A stretch of DNA of 34,266 nt from positions 1 to 34,266 of the forward strand of contig CALUSN010000005.1 in the NCBI GenBank assembly GCA_944323435.1. The letters are read 5' to 3'. Each line of letters begins with the position of its first letter. Within the stretch, counting starts at the first letter, position 1. This document shows, in pieces, positions 6,372 to 14,651 of the stretch. The translations under genes were made by a program, and so were the position numbers. The notes below the pieces were generated by a model that ran no database searches, was not told the DNA's origin, and saw only the letters and a program-made list of their open reading frames with translations. This DNA is from Candidatus Gastranaerophilales bacterium (GTDB taxonomy: Bacteria > Cyanobacteriota > Vampirovibrionia > Gastranaerophilales > Gastranaerophilaceae).

Positions 6372-8465
6372 TTAAGTTTTAACCATCCCGACCGAACGCA
6401 CTTTTACATTCGGACTTATTTCATTATATGACATAATTGAAATCTGAGGATATGTTCTTTCAACAAGTTTTCTAAATAAAAGCCTTATCGGAGAAGAACA
6501 AAGAATTACAGGCTGATTTCCCGTTGCCGTAATTGCTTTTTCCAGCTCAAGATTCATCTTGTCAAACATATTTTTAGTAAATGAAGGATCTAAAGTTACA
6601 CTCATGCCGTCAGGACTTGCGCCTTTTGCAATTGTATTTTCAACATCCGGAGCAAGAGTGATAACATAAAGTTCGCCCGTATCTGCAAGATTCTGTTTGC
6701 AAATATTTCTTGAAAGCGCCTGACGAACATGTTCCGTTAAGAAGTTCGGATTTTTATTAATTTTAGCCTGCAAGCTAATCGTCTCCAGTATTGTTTTCAA
6801 GTCTCTTACAGCAACCCCCTCTTTCAAAAGATTCTGCATAACGACTTGAACATCGCCTACTGTAATATCTTTCATCATGTCGTTAACATAATCTTCCGAA
6901 ACCTCTTTTTTAAGATTATCAATAAGCTGCTGAACATCGAATCTGGAAAGAATTTCAGAAGCGCATTTTTTGATAACTTCCGTTATATGTGTAGAAATAA
7001 CCGCAGACGCCGACACAACCGTATAACCGGACATTTCAGCCATATCTTTATCTTTGGCCTCAATCCACAATGCAGGAAGCCCGAATGCCGGCTCAATTGC
7101 GTGAATACCGTTTATTGCAAGGTTCCCGACAGGGTCGCCGGCACACATAGCAAGATATCTCTCCGGATAAACTTCACCGGATTCAAGCGCAACGCCTTTT
7201 AGTTTAATTTGATATGAGTTTGGTGAAAGCTGTAAATTATCTCTTACACGTATTGAAGGCAGAACAATACCTAAATCAAGAGCGGTTTGCCGCCTTATTT
7301 GCGCAATACGTTCCAGTAAATCGCCTCCCATTTCAACGTTTAGAAGCTGCACCAGTCTGTAACCTACTTCTATTTCTATAGTATCTACATTTAAAAGCTC
7401 CATAACGCTTTCTCTTGTAGCCTTGGCCCTTTTTTCTTTTTTGCCGAGTTTTTCCTGATGCGCCTGTTCAATTTGCTGCGCCTGCTCTGTAGCTTTTTGT
7501 TCTTTCTTTGCCTTCATTTTAAAGTAAGCAAAAGCACCTGTAATTGCCGCAATTGTAATAAACGGTATTGTCGGCATGCCCGGAACTATACCCATAAATC
7601 CTATTAAGCCGGATACAACGCCAAGAACACGCGGATCAGAAAACATTTCGTTCTTGATATCTTCTGAGAGTGATTCGTCTTTACCTGTGGCTCTTGATAC
7701 AATCAAACCTGTTGCTGTAGAAATTAAAAGAGCCGGAACCTGTGATACAAGACCGTCACCTACGGTTAATATTGTATAAGTCGAAAGTGCGGTTTGAATA
7801 TCCATATGAAGCTGAACAACACCTATTATCAATCCGCCGACAATATTTATAACAGTAATTACAATACCCGCAGTCGCATCACCTTTTACGAACTTGGAAG
7901 CACCATCCATTGTACCGTAGAAATCAGTTTCACGCTCTAACTTCCGGCGTCTTTCTTTGGCCTGCTCTTCATTAATAAGTCCGGAGTTTAAATCAGCGTC
8001 AATACTCAATTGTTTACCGGGCATCTTATCCAATGTAAACCTTGCTGAAACTTCTGCAACACGGGTTGCACCGCCTGTAATAACCATAAAGTTGATTAAT
8101 ACAAGGATACAGAAGATTACCGCACCGACTACATAATTACCTCCGACAACAAATTCGCCGAAGGAATTAATAACATTTCCCGCCTCGCCATAGAGAAGAA
8201 TCAGACGAGTAGAACTCACGTTCAACCCCAGACGGAAAAGAGTTGCAATAAGTAACACTGTTGGAAAGGATGAATAATCAAGGGGTTCCTGTGTATATAA
8301 ACATACTAAAAGTATTACTACCGCAAGCGAGATATTTATTGTAAGCAGCAAATCCAGCAGCGGAGCGGGAAGAGGAATTACCATCATGCACACAATTACG
8401 ACCAAGCCTATGGCAAGGACGATATCGTTATTGCTTAAAAGTTTTGATAATTTGCCAAGTTCCAT
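6372..8465 (-). CDS. flhA: Flagellar export gate protein FlhA
   Basis: FlhA is the large subunit of the type III export gate. It couples proton flow to export of flagellar subunits, and its cytoplasmic ring docks chaperone-substrate complexes. Here 697 residues start with about eight membrane helices (about 15-310). Between them lies the conserved cytoplasmic FHIPEP loop (ADLNSGLINEEQAKERRRKL and then FVKGDATAGI). The soluble C-terminal domain (about 350-690) includes the conserved RQALSR segment. It is separated from flhB by a two-gene block on the opposite strand, so it needs its own promoter, which is visible at 8506-8533. PilZ and the 2-TM gene follow closely and are likely co-transcribed. 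Confidence 0.98.
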   Translation of the reverse strand: MELGKLSKLLSNNDIVLAIGLVVIVCMMVIPLPAPLLDLLLTINISLAVVILLVCLYTQEPLDYSSFPTVLLIATLFRLGLNVSSTRLILLYGEAGNVINSFGEFVVGGNYVVGAVIFCILVLINFMVITGGATRVAEVSARFTLDKMPGKQLSIDADLNSGLINEEQAKERRRKLERETDFYGTMDGASKFVKGDATAGIVITVINIVGGLIIGVVQLHMDIQTALSTYTILTVGDGLVSQVPALLISTATGLIVSRATGKDESLSEDIKNEMFSDPRVLGVVSGLIGFMGIVPGMPTIPFITIAAITGAFAYFKMKAKKEQKATEQAQQIEQAHQEKLGKKEKRAKATRESVMELLNVDTIEIEVGYRLVQLLNVEMGGDLLERIAQIRRQTALDLGIVLPSIRVRDNLQLSPNSYQIKLKGVALESGEVYPERYLAMCAGDPVGNLAINGIHAIEPAFGLPALWIEAKDKDMAEMSGYTVVSASAVISTHITEVIKKCASEILSRFDVQQLIDNLKKEVSEDYVNDMMKDITVGDVQVVMQNLLKEGVAVRDLKTILETISLQAKINKNPNFLTEHVRQALSRNICKQNLADTGELYVITLAPDVENTIAKGASPDGMSVTLDPSFTKNMFDKMNLELEKAITATGNQPVILCSSPIRLLFRKLVERTYPQISIMSYNEISPNVKVRSVGMVKT

Positions 8466-8505
8466 TATTCATTCAGCCTTTATCAGGCAATCCTCTCCAA
8501 ATAAC

Positions 8506-8533
8506 ATTTTAACATCACTTATTGAAATATCAA
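8506..8533 (-). promoter_or_regulatory. Housekeeping promoter for flhA
   Basis: On the minus strand TTGATA, sixteen bases, then TAAAAT preceded by TGT (extended -10). Each hexamer matches the sigma-70 consensus at five of six positions. It lies 40 bases before the flhA ATG, so flhA can be transcribed independently of fliPQR-flhB. Confidence 0.6.
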
Positions 8534-8652
8534 AATTCAGATTTTATGTAAATTTTTTTTACAATTTATTTTGAACTGTCAAAAAATATATTTACAGTAC
8601 TTAATAAAAAAGATAACAACAATAAAGAGTTCTATTTTTGAAAGGACAAACA

Positions 8653-10581
8653 ATGAAAATTTTACCTGTTATGCAATGTTCAACATATAAAAAACCCTCT
8701 TATTTACAGCCGAACTTTACCTCAAAATTCAATACCGAAAAAATTGGCAAAGTTGTTTGGGAAAGTACAATTACAGCCGGCGGAATAACTGCTGCATACG
8801 GAACAAATAAGGCATTCAGAAATTCCGAGCAGGAGAATTATAAAATGCTGCCGGAAGAATTGGAGAAATATTTACAACAGCAAAAGGGTAAATCACAAAT
8901 CCCTCCCAAAATATACAACGAAACTAAAGAAAATAATCAAATTATTAGAAAAACTTTAATCGCAAATAATAAGCCGGAATATATACCCGAATTGTATCTG
9001 GATAAATCATACAGTACATTTTTTAAAGATTTAAAAAATCATGACCTTTCAGCACTTCAGGATATATTACTCGGAATAGAAAGTAAAAATGTAACAAAAG
9101 ACCGGAAATTTGAATATTACGACAGAATTCTGGAAAGTATATACGCACTTGCAAAAATGTACCCGAATGAGCTTAAAGATGACAAATTTACAGAAGAACT
9201 CGTACGGGTTATAAAAGACATAAAACTTAAAAGAGATGCGGCATTTGAGGAAACTTCCGATGAGATTCAGGAAAATCGTGCTGACAGAATGCTTATATAT
9301 CTGACGAAAGAGTATGCAAATAAAGAAGCTCCGTCCCGATTTATTGAATCATTAGTAAGAAACACTGTAACCATAGCACCTTCCCGTGTATTCATTGCTG
9401 ACAAAAATGCCGGTGATTTTAAACTGCCGGATAAAATATTTAAGCAATTCATATATGAACAATTCAGTAATTTAACGAAAGTTTCGCCTCTCGTAAATGC
9501 ACCTGATGATGAAGCAAAAATAATAAGACAAATTTTTATTGATAATAATCAGCCGGAATATATTTTCAAATTGTATCTGCCAAGACACGTAGGCAACAGT
9601 AAATTAGACAGGCTTTTAAGCAGATTTTTACCGGAATATAACGGAAACAGCTGGTTAGATAAAAAAATAAAAAAACAGGATATCAATGAAGTATCAGAAC
9701 TTATAAAATGTCTTGAAGATAAGAATCTTAAAGAAGAACAAAGAATTAAATTTTCGGCAGTAACACTTGGGCAGATTTACGATTTTATATTCGAAAATAT
9801 GGAAGAATATAAAAATAATGATACATTCAGACCGCTGGATGATATAGTAAAAGATTTACAAAATTATCTGGCAAAATTCCCCAATAATAGTCATACAATT
9901 TCTTCAAACAACTATCTAAAGTTTCTGCGGGAAAAATATAACTATATAGATTTTACTCCGGATTTTGATTCCGGAATTGTAAAATCTTTCACCGGAGAAG
10001 AATATAAATTACCGCCAAAAGGAAATTATACAGATATTGACAACGTTATAAAATACTTAAACAAGCCGGATGTTATAAATACAGACGGATATATCCTTAA
10101 TTTTAATGACGACATTATTAATTCAATTGCTGATATTGTACCGTTGGAAAATAATAAAACAAAGTACAAAGAAATGATAAGTTTGCTTAAAAATTTAAAG
10201 CAAATAAACTATGACAAAAAAGACAGTTATGATATTTCCGTAATTGAGAAAATAATGAATGCCGAAAACTATGAACTTCTGGAAGTTGTTAAGGACAGCG
10301 GTATAAAATATTTGCCGGAACTCGACTTTGTATACACAAATATCAGCGATAAAAACTTTAAAGAACAGATAAACAATATAAACTTTAATAATGTAGAAGA
10401 ACTTGTAAATATAATCCGTACTAAAGATAAAACCAAGCTTCCTCTGTTGGATAAATACTTATCATCACCTCTGATATTAAATAACCGCAATATTATGGAA
10501 CAGCTGAAATATGAGCATGAACGCACCGGTAATGCTTTTAACATTTATTTATCAGAGACGTATCCGAACATTTTTAATTAA
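8653..10581 (+). CDS. Large unknown protein with internal repeats, inside the flagellar locus
   Basis: I do not recognise this 642-residue protein. The ATG at 8653 is chosen because GAAAGGA lies seven bases upstream; an earlier in-frame TTG (8638) falls inside that site. The N-terminus MKILPV...NFTSKF resembles that of the next gene (MKIFPV...CFTGYK). A weakly hydrophobic Gly/Ala stretch lies at about 32-50. The rest is helical, charged and Lys/Asn/Asp-rich. Two copies of a block about 100 residues long can be seen. They begin IIRKTLIANNKPEYI (97) and IIRQIFIDNNQPEYI (290), each followed by a similar helical part. A weaker third echo (ELLEVVKDSGIKYLPEL) occurs near 535. It may be a repeat-based binding or scaffold protein. 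No catalytic motif was seen. Confidence 0.8.
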   Translation: MKILPVMQCSTYKKPSYLQPNFTSKFNTEKIGKVVWESTITAGGITAAYGTNKAFRNSEQENYKMLPEELEKYLQQQKGKSQIPPKIYNETKENNQIIRKTLIANNKPEYIPELYLDKSYSTFFKDLKNHDLSALQDILLGIESKNVTKDRKFEYYDRILESIYALAKMYPNELKDDKFTEELVRVIKDIKLKRDAAFEETSDEIQENRADRMLIYLTKEYANKEAPSRFIESLVRNTVTIAPSRVFIADKNAGDFKLPDKIFKQFIYEQFSNLTKVSPLVNAPDDEAKIIRQIFIDNNQPEYIFKLYLPRHVGNSKLDRLLSRFLPEYNGNSWLDKKIKKQDINEVSELIKCLEDKNLKEEQRIKFSAVTLGQIYDFIFENMEEYKNNDTFRPLDDIVKDLQNYLAKFPNNSHTISSNNYLKFLREKYNYIDFTPDFDSGIVKSFTGEEYKLPPKGNYTDIDNVIKYLNKPDVINTDGYILNFNDDIINSIADIVPLENNKTKYKEMISLLKNLKQINYDKKDSYDISVIEKIMNAENYELLEVVKDSGIKYLPELDFVYTNISDKNFKEQINNINFNNVEELVNIIRTKDKTKLPLLDKYLSSPLILNNRNIMEQLKYEHERTGNAFNIYLSETYPNIFN

Positions 10582-10606
10582 AATTTATTATCTGAAAGGA
10601 TAAAAC

Positions 10607-11626
10607 ATGAAAATTTTTCCAGTAACCAGTTATACTAAACATAATTTTGTAAAGCAGGCTTCCACCAGTCAATGTTTTACAGGATATAAAAATTTTAAAA
10701 CAAACCCTGTCCCGAAGTTAAATAATATTTTTAAAGACTTTTTGGACAGGAAACAACAAATTGCATTTTTAGGTGCCTGTACACTCACTATAATAGGGTT
10801 TGCATCAGGCAATCCATTTCTCTCATTGCTTGGCGCTCTTTGCGGATTCTGCGGTGCATTGCCAAATATTTTTTTAGAACGCAACTTAAAAGAGTTTGAT
10901 CCAATTCTTATTGATCCTGTCAGGGATCGTAATCTGACACACTCTCAGAAGATTTGTAAAAATGTTTTTTTAGAGAATTATTCTGCTCAAGAATCAAAAA
11001 ACATCATAAATCAATATAAAGACATTATGAAAATATCTGATAAAGAAAATTTTATACGGGTACTTTTTAATAGTTTAACGAAAGATTACAAATTAAATAA
11101 TATTCCTATCAAGCTGATAAATTCAGACAGAAATACAAGCTCTGATATCTCAAGTTTAAAAGCTAACGGCTGGGTTACACCGGATTATTCAAAACAAGTC
11201 TACGAACTTCATTTAGTTTCAAGTAAAGATCGTAACAAAATAATGGAAACTTTAGTGCATGAATTACATCACATAAAGCAGGAATTACTTGCATATAAGG
11301 CTTCGCAATCATATGAAGAAAGAGTCGGAAATGACATACTATTTATAAAATCGTACTTTAAATCTTCAAATAAATATTCAGACAAATTTTACCCTTCAGA
11401 AAGTGCTATTAAAGAATTTGCTAAAACCAGGATGAATCAAAAAGACAGAATGATGAATTCGTTGGGAATATATTCAGGAACAATAAAAGGAGGAGATTTT
11501 TACCGGTATGCAAAGAAAGTTACAAAGACAAAATATCCTTCTTCAGCCGCCTCATATTTGTCTTTATACGAGGAGCAGGATGCAATACGCGCGGGGAAAA
11601 TGTTTGTCAGGAAAATAAATTTATAA
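10607..11626 (+). CDS. Membrane-anchored HELHH zinc metalloprotease-like protein
   Basis: The protein has a short polar N-terminus (MKIFPV...CFTGYK), two adjacent hydrophobic segments (about 51-66 and 69-88), and a soluble domain. That domain holds the zincin motif ETLVHELHHIKQ, with H218, E219 and H222. A third zinc ligand could be E322 or E323 in YEEQDAIRAG, a gluzincin-like E-x-x-A arrangement. I infer a metal-dependent peptidase whose catalytic domain faces one side of the inner membrane; the family is not identified. The gene starts 25 bases after its partner with AAAGGA upstream. Its TAA overlaps the flhB stop region by six bases on the opposite strand. Substrate is unknown; the partner protein or flagellar components are guesses. 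Confidence 0.8.
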   Translation: MKIFPVTSYTKHNFVKQASTSQCFTGYKNFKTNPVPKLNNIFKDFLDRKQQIAFLGACTLTIIGFASGNPFLSLLGALCGFCGALPNIFLERNLKEFDPILIDPVRDRNLTHSQKICKNVFLENYSAQESKNIINQYKDIMKISDKENFIRVLFNSLTKDYKLNNIPIKLINSDRNTSSDISSLKANGWVTPDYSKQVYELHLVSSKDRNKIMETLVHELHHIKQELLAYKASQSYEERVGNDILFIKSYFKSSNKYSDKFYPSESAIKEFAKTRMNQKDRMMNSLGIYSGTIKGGDFYRYAKKVTKTKYPSSAASYLSLYEEQDAIRAGKMFVRKINL

Positions 11627-12706
11627 ATTATTCTCATTCTTTTGTCTGAAAACATAAGCAAGAATTTCAGCGACAGCAACATACATATCGGAAGGAATAA
11701 CTCCGTCAATTGGTACTGTATTATATAGAGCACGCGCAACCGGACGGTTTTCTACTATCGGAACATTGTTCTCTTTAGCAATTTCTCTTATCTGGAATGC
11801 CAGATAATCTACACCTTTTGCTACTACCATCGGCGCCGGCGCCTTTGTTTTATCATATTTGATTGCCACAGCATAATGAGTAGGGTTTGTTACAACAACA
11901 TCAGCATTAGGTACAGCAGACATCATCCTCTGCCGCGCCATCTGCATCTGAATAGATTTTATCCTTGCCTTAACCTTTGGATCCCCTTCGGTGTCTTTAT
12001 ATTCATCCTTAATTTCCTGTTTCGTCATCTTGATAGATTTTTCATATTCATAATTCTGATATTTTTTATCCAAATACCCCAATACGAGCATAGCAAGACA
12101 CATATTAATTATCATATTAATTAAAATTGAAAGGATTATATTTAACGCAACAGGAATTTCCAACCCGACAAGCCCCAATAAATCACCTTTTCTGCTATTA
12201 ATAGCAGAATAGCCGCAGGCCCCTACAACAACAATTTTAAGAATTGATTTTGCAAATTCGACCATTGACCGGGGCTCAAAGGGGTTAAACATTCTCTTTG
12301 CATTTTGAAGCATTCTTCTTGGAGAGAGATTCTCCGGATTAAATTTTGCTTTTTCCAATGCAAACACATGCCCGACATCAAGTCTTATAATAAATATTGC
12401 AGCAATAACCAGCAGCACAAAAAACGGAAGTACAATAATTGCAAGATATTTAAAATACGGCAAGAGCAGCCCCATAATGTTGGAGACATCGAGATTAACA
12501 TAATCCAGATGAGAAAAAGTTTCTCTCATCATTCCTGTAATATTATCGTACATACTTCCGGCAAAGACGCCCAAAAGAGCAATCCCTGCAACCATAACAA
12601 GAGCCGCATCCATATCCCTGCTTTTGGATACATTGCCCCGTTCCCGCTCTTTGTTACGCCGTCGGGTGGTCGCTTCTTCGGTTCTTTCTGCTCCGTCATT
12701 TCCCAT
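11621..12706 (-). CDS. flhB: Flagellar export switch protein FlhB
   Basis: FlhB sets substrate specificity of the flagellar type III export apparatus, switching from rod/hook to filament export. The charged N-terminus (ERTEEATTRRRNKERERG), four membrane helices (about 30-215) and the C-terminal cytoplasmic domain are all present. The autocleavage motif NPTH is at residues 274-277 (cleavage after N274). Its length of 361 is normal. It is the last gene of fliP-fliQ-fliR-flhB. Its 3' end overlaps by six bases the convergent metalloprotease-like gene, leaving no room for a private terminator. Confidence 0.98.
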   Translation of the reverse strand: MGNDGAERTEEATTRRRNKERERGNVSKSRDMDAALVMVAGIALLGVFAGSMYDNITGMMRETFSHLDYVNLDVSNIMGLLLPYFKYLAIIVLPFFVLLVIAAIFIIRLDVGHVFALEKAKFNPENLSPRRMLQNAKRMFNPFEPRSMVEFAKSILKIVVVGACGYSAINSRKGDLLGLVGLEIPVALNIILSILINMIINMCLAMLVLGYLDKKYQNYEYEKSIKMTKQEIKDEYKDTEGDPKVKARIKSIQMQMARQRMMSAVPNADVVVTNPTHYAVAIKYDKTKAPAPMVVAKGVDYLAFQIREIAKENNVPIVENRPVARALYNTVPIDGVIPSDMYVAVAEILAYVFRQKNENNL

Positions 12707-12731: not shown

Positions 12732-13511
12732 TTAAAATATCAGAGCAATATTTTCCATAAAACGTTGTATCAGCAATGAAATATACTCTGCAGTCGGGCG
12801 CATAAATATAAGCGAAAGCAGCAGCCCCAAATAAATCTTTAAAGGCAGCGAAACCATAAAAATATTCATTTGCGGCATCATTTTGGAGGTAAAACCGAGA
12901 AGAACATCCGTTATAAATAATATCCCGAAAATAGGCAAAGAAATGCTTAAACCAATACTAAACATTTGTCCTGTAACAGTAACAATATGCCCGACAAGCT
13001 CCGGAGTAAATAAAAAGGCATAACCGACAGGCAAGGTTTTAAAACTGTTGTAAATCGCGGAAAACAACCACTGGTGAGCCCCGAGAGATATAAACAACAT
13101 ACAGGCAAGATATGTAAAAGCCTGTGTAATAACCGGAGACTGCCCTCCTGATGTCGGGTTCAACGCCTGATCTGCAGACAAGCCCATCTGAATTGCAAAC
13201 ATATTTACCCCTAGTTCAATTCCGACAAATAATATATTTGCACAGAATCCCATGGCAAATCCGATAAGAAATTCTTTAAGCAAAACAAGAGTTAATGCAG
13301 GAACAGAATTAGGGACAACAAAATCCGTATTATACTGAACAATAGGAAACAGTATAAATGCAATCAGAGCCGCAAGCCAGATTTTAACCTGCATAGGAAT
13401 CGGGTAAGTAGAAAAAACCGGAGCAGACATAAAAAGTCCTGACAGCCGTGTTAAAATTGCCATAAAAAGAATTATATTTGATACTGAAAATAATACATCC
13501 AGATTAAACAT
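12732..13511 (-). CDS. fliR: Flagellar export protein FliR
   Basis: FliR is part of the FliP5-Q4-R1 export gate complex through which flagellar subunits cross the inner membrane. The 259-residue protein has six or so hydrophobic helices and the family blocks MSAPVFS near the start and GFAMGFCANILFVGIELG in the middle. The start is set by AGGAG just before the ATG. A GC-rich repeat separates it from fliQ, and flhB follows after 25 bases. Confidence 0.96.
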   Translation of the reverse strand: MFNLDVLFSVSNIILFMAILTRLSGLFMSAPVFSTYPIPMQVKIWLAALIAFILFPIVQYNTDFVVPNSVPALTLVLLKEFLIGFAMGFCANILFVGIELGVNMFAIQMGLSADQALNPTSGGQSPVITQAFTYLACMLFISLGAHQWLFSAIYNSFKTLPVGYAFLFTPELVGHIVTVTGQMFSIGLSISLPIFGILFITDVLLGFTSKMMPQMNIFMVSLPLKIYLGLLLSLIFMRPTAEYISLLIQRFMENIALIF

Positions 13512-13520
13512 TGCTCTCCT

Positions 13521-13555
13521 ATCCTAACCCTCACCCGCAAGGGGGCAAGGGAGCA
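13521..13555. repeat. CCCTCACCC...GGGGGCAAGGG intergenic repeat in the flagellar operon
   Basis: A C-rich half and a G-rich half fold into a hairpin. This is the common 'CTAACCCTC-CCC-GCAAGGGG' type of bacterial intergenic repeat. A second, longer copy is at 28216-28253. Here it lies in the unusually wide 92-base gap between fliQ and fliR, where it could weaken read-through or protect the upstream mRNA end. Confidence 0.6.
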
Positions 13556-13603
13556 GCCGTTCCGGAACCGTCAGGTAAAAGTTACGGATGCGAGGTTTAT
13601 TTC

Positions 13604-13879
13604 CTACCCGGCGCCTATTAACTGCGGAATCGCATCCATAAATTCATTAACCGTTGTTATAAAAATACTAAATATCCATGGCATTAAAAATATAAGCAAT
13701 ATTACGCAGCCGACAATCTTAGGCACAAAAGTAAGCGTTGATTCCTGTATTTGTGTAACCGTTTGAAAAATACTGACTATTAAACCTAAAATTACACCCA
13801 CAAGCAATATCGGAACAGATATTTCAAGCGTTAATATAAACATTTTTTGCAAAAGAGTAATTACAATATCCTGATTCAT
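13604..13879 (-). CDS. fliQ: Flagellar export protein FliQ
   Basis: This 91-residue protein with two long membrane helices (about 12-40 and 50-80) is typical of FliQ, a gate subunit that packs around FliP. Family blocks GLIVSIFQTVTQIQESTLTF and PKIVGCVILL are present. It starts 13 bases after fliP and is clearly in the same operon. No unusual features. Confidence 0.96.
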   Translation of the reverse strand: MNQDIVITLLQKMFILTLEISVPILLVGVILGLIVSIFQTVTQIQESTLTFVPKIVGCVILLIFLMPWIFSIFITTVNEFMDAIPQLIGAG

Positions 13880-13892
13880 TTATAAAATAACC

Positions 13893-14651
13893 TCACCTGA
13901 CAAAACTTTCGACAAGAGATTTTACAACCAGATACCAGCCGTCAACCATTACAAACATTATAAGCTTAAACGGCAAAGCAATCATTGTCGGCGGCAAAAA
14001 CATCATACCCATTGACACAAGAACTGATGATACCACAATATCAATTACAAGAAACGGCAAATATACAACAAACCCTATCGTAAATGCCGTTTTAAGTTCG
14101 CTTAAAATGAATGCCGGCAAAAGTACATAAGTAGGAACATCATCTTTATTCTTTGGTTTTTCTATTTTTGCCATTCTTACAAAAAGTGCCAGCTCTTTTT
14201 CATGCGTCTGCTTAAACATAAAATTTCTTACCGGTACTATACCCCGGTCTATTGCAGCCTGCTGGGTTATTTGATTCTGCATATACGGCTGCAGCGCTTT
14301 TTCATTAATTTCATTAAAAGTCGGCGCCATTATAAAAAATGTCAAGATTAACGCTAAACTTGTAATAACCTGATTCGGCGGTAATGTGCCCGCGCCAAGC
14401 GCCTGTCTTGTCAAAGACAGAACAACAACCAGACGTATAAAAGACGTAGTCATTATTAATATACTCGGCGCAAGTGTTAATATTGTTAACCAGATAAGAA
14501 TTTGCAAACCATTTGTAAAATCCTGGGGAGTGCTTGCATTCTGGAGTCCTATATTAATATTAGGAAATGTCATTGCAGCTTCTGACGGTAACAATGTTAA
14601 TATCAGCCCGCAAATACACGCTCCCCACTTTTTTATATTTAAAAATTTCAT
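13893..14651 (-). CDS. fliP: Flagellar export protein FliP
   Basis: FliP forms the core ring of the export gate. The 252-residue protein starts with a cleavable signal peptide (cleavage near residue 25, after SEAA), as is usual for FliP. The conserved FIRLVVVLSLTRQALG segment follows, then a periplasmic part, then two further helices ending in FKLIMFVMVDGW. The ATG at 14651 has AAGGA upstream. A hairpin followed by six Ts lies directly before the ribosome site (14664-14704), so expression may be attenuated or may depend on a promoter I could not place. Confidence 0.97.
   Translation of the reverse strand: MKFLNIKKWGACICGLILTLLPSEAAMTFPNINIGLQNASTPQDFTNGLQILIWLTILTLAPSILIMTTSFIRLVVVLSLTRQALGAGTLPPNQVITSLALILTFFIMAPTFNEINEKALQPYMQNQITQQAAIDRGIVPVRNFMFKQTHEKELALFVRMAKIEKPKNKDDVPTYVLLPAFILSELKTAFTIGFVVYLPFLVIDIVVSSVLVSMGMMFLPPTMIALPFKLIMFVMVDGWYLVVKSLVESFVR

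Follow-up and report, generated by a model that had tools for sequence, protein, structure and literature searches.

The two-gene cassette that separates flhB from flhA in a Candidatus Gastranaerophilales genome is probably a lineage-specific accessory insertion at a permissive gap and not a part of flagellar export. The window, that is, the 34,266-nt stretch analyzed here, comes from contig 5 of a 1.86-Mb MAG with 89% completeness, which belongs to a gut lineage of non-photosynthetic cyanobacteria. An earlier note on this DNA had placed two plus-strand genes between minus-strand flhB and flhA, and the open reading frames and their coordinates bear this out. The flagellar neighbors FlhA, FlhB, FliR, FliQ and FliP are all encoded on the minus strand, and each matches its own Pfam family. 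The locus is composed as follows.

6372–8465, minus strand: flhA (Pfam FHIPEP, E 3.8e-260)
8506–8533, minus strand: promoter-like site of flhA, TTGATA-16-TAAAAT with an extended −10, found by consensus scan and ancestral
8534–8652, plus strand: array leader, defined by alignment with G209 and G240
8653–10581, plus strand: gene A, an open reading frame of 642 aa starting with MKILPV...NFTS
10582–10606, plus strand: A-B gap of 25 nt with a GAAAGGA ribosome-binding site, read from the sequence
10607–11626, plus strand: gene B, an open reading frame of 339 aa starting with MKIFPV...CFTG
11621–12706, minus strand: flhB (Bac_export_2; Pfam and open reading frame list)
12732–14651, minus strand: fliR, fliQ and fliP, in the same operon as flhB (Pfam)

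GAAAGGA is located 5′ of the ATG in gene A and in gene B alike, and the two genes likely form one transcript. Gene B and flhB meet tail to tail, with a 6-nt overlap of their stop codons.

As the earlier note had proposed, we compared the flhB-flhA junction across related genomes. The stretch upstream of flhA was resolved in 29 genomes of the genus, namely the window and 28 relatives. flhB and flhA are compact, 11–106 nt apart, in 15 genomes, all of which carry the window-type flhA. In eight genomes flhA is away from flhB, with other genes upstream and no flhB within the fetched stretch, and in one genome an unrelated 364-aa gene occupies the junction in the same orientation as flhA. A-type genes are present in reverse orientation in five (the window, G240, G209, G223 and G086) and absent from the junction in the other 24. 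G240 harbors three tandem A genes, the third of which is 77% identical to A of the window, and G209 harbors two. The A-type array of G223 has decayed and is broken into short frames, while G086, a more distant genome, has a single A gene with 40% identity. In the FlhA tree, the array carriers form the clade {G240,(window,(G223,G209))}, while the junction of its sister, G192, is empty and G086 is placed on a separate branch. As A is found at the junction in two branches, the options are an older array with repeated losses or two separate occupations of the site. The presence of A in two branches at the same junction could also mean long retention by selection, which would count against an accessory insertion.

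The leader of the cassette carries a probable trace of a larger array. Up to ~8633 (AATAAAGAG), the window aligned with the leader of the first array gene in G209 and G240, in both of which this leader adjoins flhA, 5′ of the first A gene. From ~8637 the window reads TTTGAAAGGAC...ATGAAAATTTTACC, which matches the sequence 5′ of and at the start of the third A gene in G240. The leader of gene 1 is thus fused to the start of gene 3, and this fusion is most simply read as a scar left when array genes 1 and 2 were deleted. No counterpart of B was found at the flhB-flhA junction in any of 65 genus genomes, and B seems to be a recent arrival in its place between A and flhB. The cassette would then consist of the remnant of a larger A array, left by a probable deletion, and the newcomer B.

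Between A and its G240 orthologue, dS was 0.74 and dN was 0.147 (dN/dS ~0.2), while FlhA of the same genome pair showed a dS of 0.86 and a dN of 0.019. The dS values of A and FlhA are close, indicating that A was inherited with the locus, and the dN/dS of ~0.2 indicates that A is under purifying selection and is therefore a functional protein. The dN of A was ~8 times that of FlhA in this comparison, and the fastest-changing part of A is its last 120 residues.

The promoter-like site that the earlier note had assigned to flhA at 8506–8533 is present as a consensus match: read from 8533 to 8506, it has 10 of 12 consensus positions, a 16-nt spacer and an extended −10. The further claim that flhA had gained this promoter did not hold, since a similar site occurs in relatives without the insertion. 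TTGnCA-like and TGnTAnnAT elements are located upstream of flhA in relatives with an empty junction, e.g. L056, L060, L074 and L076, and the same kind of element is located upstream of the relocated flhA in L055, L062, L068, L073 and L075. The ribosome-binding region of flhA is also shared with those relatives. Their promoter elements mostly scored better than 98 of 100 shuffles; the element was missing in genomes with the shortest flhB-flhA gaps. Thus, the promoter-like site is ancestral and predates the cassette. Inserts in the flhB-flhA gap would be harmless because flhA has an independent promoter within this ~100-nt gap.

We therefore favor the following history. The pre-existing promoter of flhA would have made the gap permissive for inserts, and a tandem A array would have sat at the junction in reverse orientation, as in the closest relatives. 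Array genes 1 and 2 were presumably lost in the lineage of the window, where A is what remains of the third, and gene B, for an unrelated metallopeptidase, may have arrived between A and flhB. Both genes would belong to a repertoire with fast turnover that is probably envelope- or host-facing and stands apart from flagellar export. As an operon insertion the cassette is ordinary, yet it is well resolved: the empty site, the larger array, a decayed copy and the probable deletion are all visible.

The earlier description of A as a large repeat protein was borne out, as residues ~88–285 align with residues ~281–473 with a score of 119, whereas 300 shuffles reached 70 at most. A is predicted to be soluble and all-helical, although the model is of low confidence (pLDDT 42). 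We collected 40 members of the A family, which were found only within this genus. Many of them are encoded in tandem arrays at other loci (in G203, G206, G246 and contig C111 of the same MAG as the window), and several arrays adjoin a gene for a protein with two AAA+ domains. Arrays of A-family genes are seen at L116, L117, L118, L119, L079 and L080, some of them also with an HExxH protein; no known system was recognised in these AAA+-linked arrays.

Searches of Pfam (over the cut-off), NCBIfam, PADLOC and PDB sequences returned no known family for A, and no relatives were found among viral contigs. The C-terminal region of the A family resembles ankyrin-type helical repeats by eye, and Ank_2 weakly matched one AAA+ protein encoded next to A-family genes (E 0.0021). 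At E 0.05, ankyrin models matched none of the 34 A-family proteins examined. Taken together, the predicted fold and the internal repeat favor a helical-repeat protein that may serve for binding or as a scaffold. The searches point to an undescribed protein family of a common, hardly cultured gut lineage.

Searches with HMMs and structures, which had also been suggested for both proteins, left A without a known family and linked B weakly to DUF6782 and to gluzincins. The HELHH motif noted earlier in B was confirmed at residue 218 (DNA position 11258), and E323 is located near the C terminus. H218, E219, H222, Q225, E323 and A326 are invariant in 25 homologues, so that HExxHxxQ and the late ExxA are shared by all 25 B-family proteins. 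By sequence, B accordingly has the HExxH and the conserved downstream Glu expected of a gluzincin, and the invariance of the catalytic residues suggests that its predicted active site is intact. One clear hydrophobic segment at residues 71–90 supports the view that B is membrane-anchored. DUF6782 (PF20573), a putative metallopeptidase family that shares the HExxH catalytic motif with B, was matched by 12 of the 25 B-family proteins (best E 2.1e-9), while B of the window stayed below the Pfam cut-off (15.3 bits vs 27).

The confident parts of the B model lie in the catalytic half, which aligned with minigluzincins at Z 7.2–7.5 over 91–109 residues. The best VIA-align matches of the model were gluzincins, with Z at most 7.5, and Foldseek E values were above 0.3. 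Minigluzincins (SprT-type protease, IrrE/PprI and selecase) have HExxH and a later Glu, as B does. The likeness to them stays below Z 8 and lacks a sequence match; B further differs from them by its membrane anchor and by the ~100 residues that separate the motif from E323. In PADLOC, A had no match, and the match of B to NsnC reached only 19.5 bits and did not cover the catalytic motif. We infer that B is a membrane-tethered gluzincin that may cleave proteins at or near the membrane. Among 65 genomes of the genus, 22 have B relatives, and among 191 genomes of the family, 12 do; the loci are scattered. A search of genome contigs with a closer subset of the B alignment returned 12 loci. Many B relatives contain PPDTVEIS-type linkers before the membrane segment (alignment A1; L125–L145 and L187–L198), which we take to be reminiscent of the anti-sigma factor FlgM.

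An FHIPEP gene was detected in 190 of 191 family genomes, and FliP was kept in all eight flagellin-free genomes tested. The loci that we read in flagellin-free genomes carry fliE-fliF-FliG-like gene-fliH-flhA2 and FliMN gene-fliO-fliP2-fliQ2-fliR2, which together form a second set of flagellar-type export genes. Flagellated members have this second export set in addition to the set in the window. Across flagellin-free and flagellated genomes, the second set was seen at L147 (G073:C1:437000-456999), L158 (G073:C1:200001-220000), L082 (G000:C88), L199 (G000:C44) and L203–L222. Subsets of flagellar genes have been described in Gastranaerophilales genomes inferred to be non-motile and unable to make a flagellum (Soo et al., 2014; PMC4040986). 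That study inferred the loss of functional flagella, whereas we found the second set throughout the sampled family. Its uniform retention suggests a working export apparatus that is non-flagellar, and the genes previously taken for an incomplete flagellar set probably encode a non-flagellar type III system of the family. Most genomes also encode a third, short FHIPEP-like protein of ~490–510 aa (e.g. L207:106-1584), whose match to FlhA is limited to the C-terminal half (model positions 312–653). Flagellin-type genes number 6 to 11 per genome in G000, G086, G108 and G188, some of them in reading frames of >1000 aa.

A and B might be secretion substrates sorted by their N-terminal tails, possibly via this second apparatus. 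The tail M[KQR][IV]..P[IV]...F[KRQ][GA] in its strict form was found in 24 of 40 A-family members vs 16 of 747 background genes, the second export set persists without flagellin, and a tail-bearing gene adjoins fliR2 in G073 and G006. However, none of 25 B-family proteins has the strict tail, B of the window matches its first half only, and B contains a membrane segment. The F[KRQ][GAS] motif is enriched in the A family, less so in the B family, and hardly at N termini overall in unbiased samples from two genomes. Clustering of tail-bearing genes with the second export gate was considered and dropped, as few of the loci read have such genes flanking the gate. The broader notion of secretion for all MKIxP[IV] proteins was also rejected: the pattern is unspecific at the DNA level and exceeds control levels in some photosynthetic cyanobacteria without the apparatus. 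We thus regard sorting by the tail as unlikely. The stricter version, in which the tail shared by A-family proteins and partly by B is an uncharacterised Gastranaerophilales export signal read by the family-wide second type III apparatus, is slightly more doubtful still; if it were true, arrays like that of the window would be stocks of secreted proteins. A literature search for Melainabacteria in connection with effectors, type III secretion or ankyrins yielded nothing relevant.

The earlier note had offered the pair as an accessory module, perhaps an exported substrate with its processing protease or a modifier of flagellar export kept in this locus by selection. The accessory part stands, since most relatives lack the cassette, the copy number is variable and A is under purifying selection; the flagellar parts do not. 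A role of A as substrate of the flagellar export gate, with B as its processing protease, or of both as modifiers of export, would fit their place within the export operon, the lack of an obvious Sec signal at their N termini, the spacing of A and B that allows a single transcript, and an A family confined to a genus in which all four members tested have flagellins. The last point leaves room for some loose tie of A to motility, which counts somewhat against our account. Nevertheless, such a flagellar role is very unlikely. The junction is empty in most flagellated relatives (15 of the 29 genomes), and eight more have flhA apart from flhB. Linkage of A or B to flagellar genes was not conserved across species, given the 24 junctions without A and the paralogues elsewhere, where other A arrays stand beside AAA+ ATPase genes and not flagellar genes. 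B is not restricted to flagellated genomes, as homologues occur in G074 and G116, which lack flagellin, and among the genomes searched only that of the window has A and B as a pair. The cassette is tied to the flagellum only by position, and it cautions against inferring function from position in a flagellar operon.

We give equally little credence to a chance landing of mobile-element or phage cargo. The distribution is patchy and B is at this place in one species only, but A relatives were not found in viral contigs, no integrase or transposase is located beside the cassette, and A is at the same place in relatives with a dS matching that of FlhA. It is most improbable that the insert acts as a regulator in which transcription of A and B against flhB, tail to tail as the 6-nt overlap of the stops would allow, tunes flagellar expression, because A is under purifying selection as a protein and the junction tolerates arrays of widely differing length.

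An accessory insertion at a tolerant site also agrees with a second kind of insert in this operon. In five relatives (L052, L053, L054, L061 and L115), an opposite-strand gene for a membrane protein is located at the flhB-fliR junction, and the one tested, in L115, belongs to DUF2142. Like the cassette, it is a reverse-oriented gene inside the same operon; unlike the A-B cassette, it encodes an unrelated protein, occupies another junction and is missing from the window. This suggests a general tolerance of the operon for reverse-oriented inserts.
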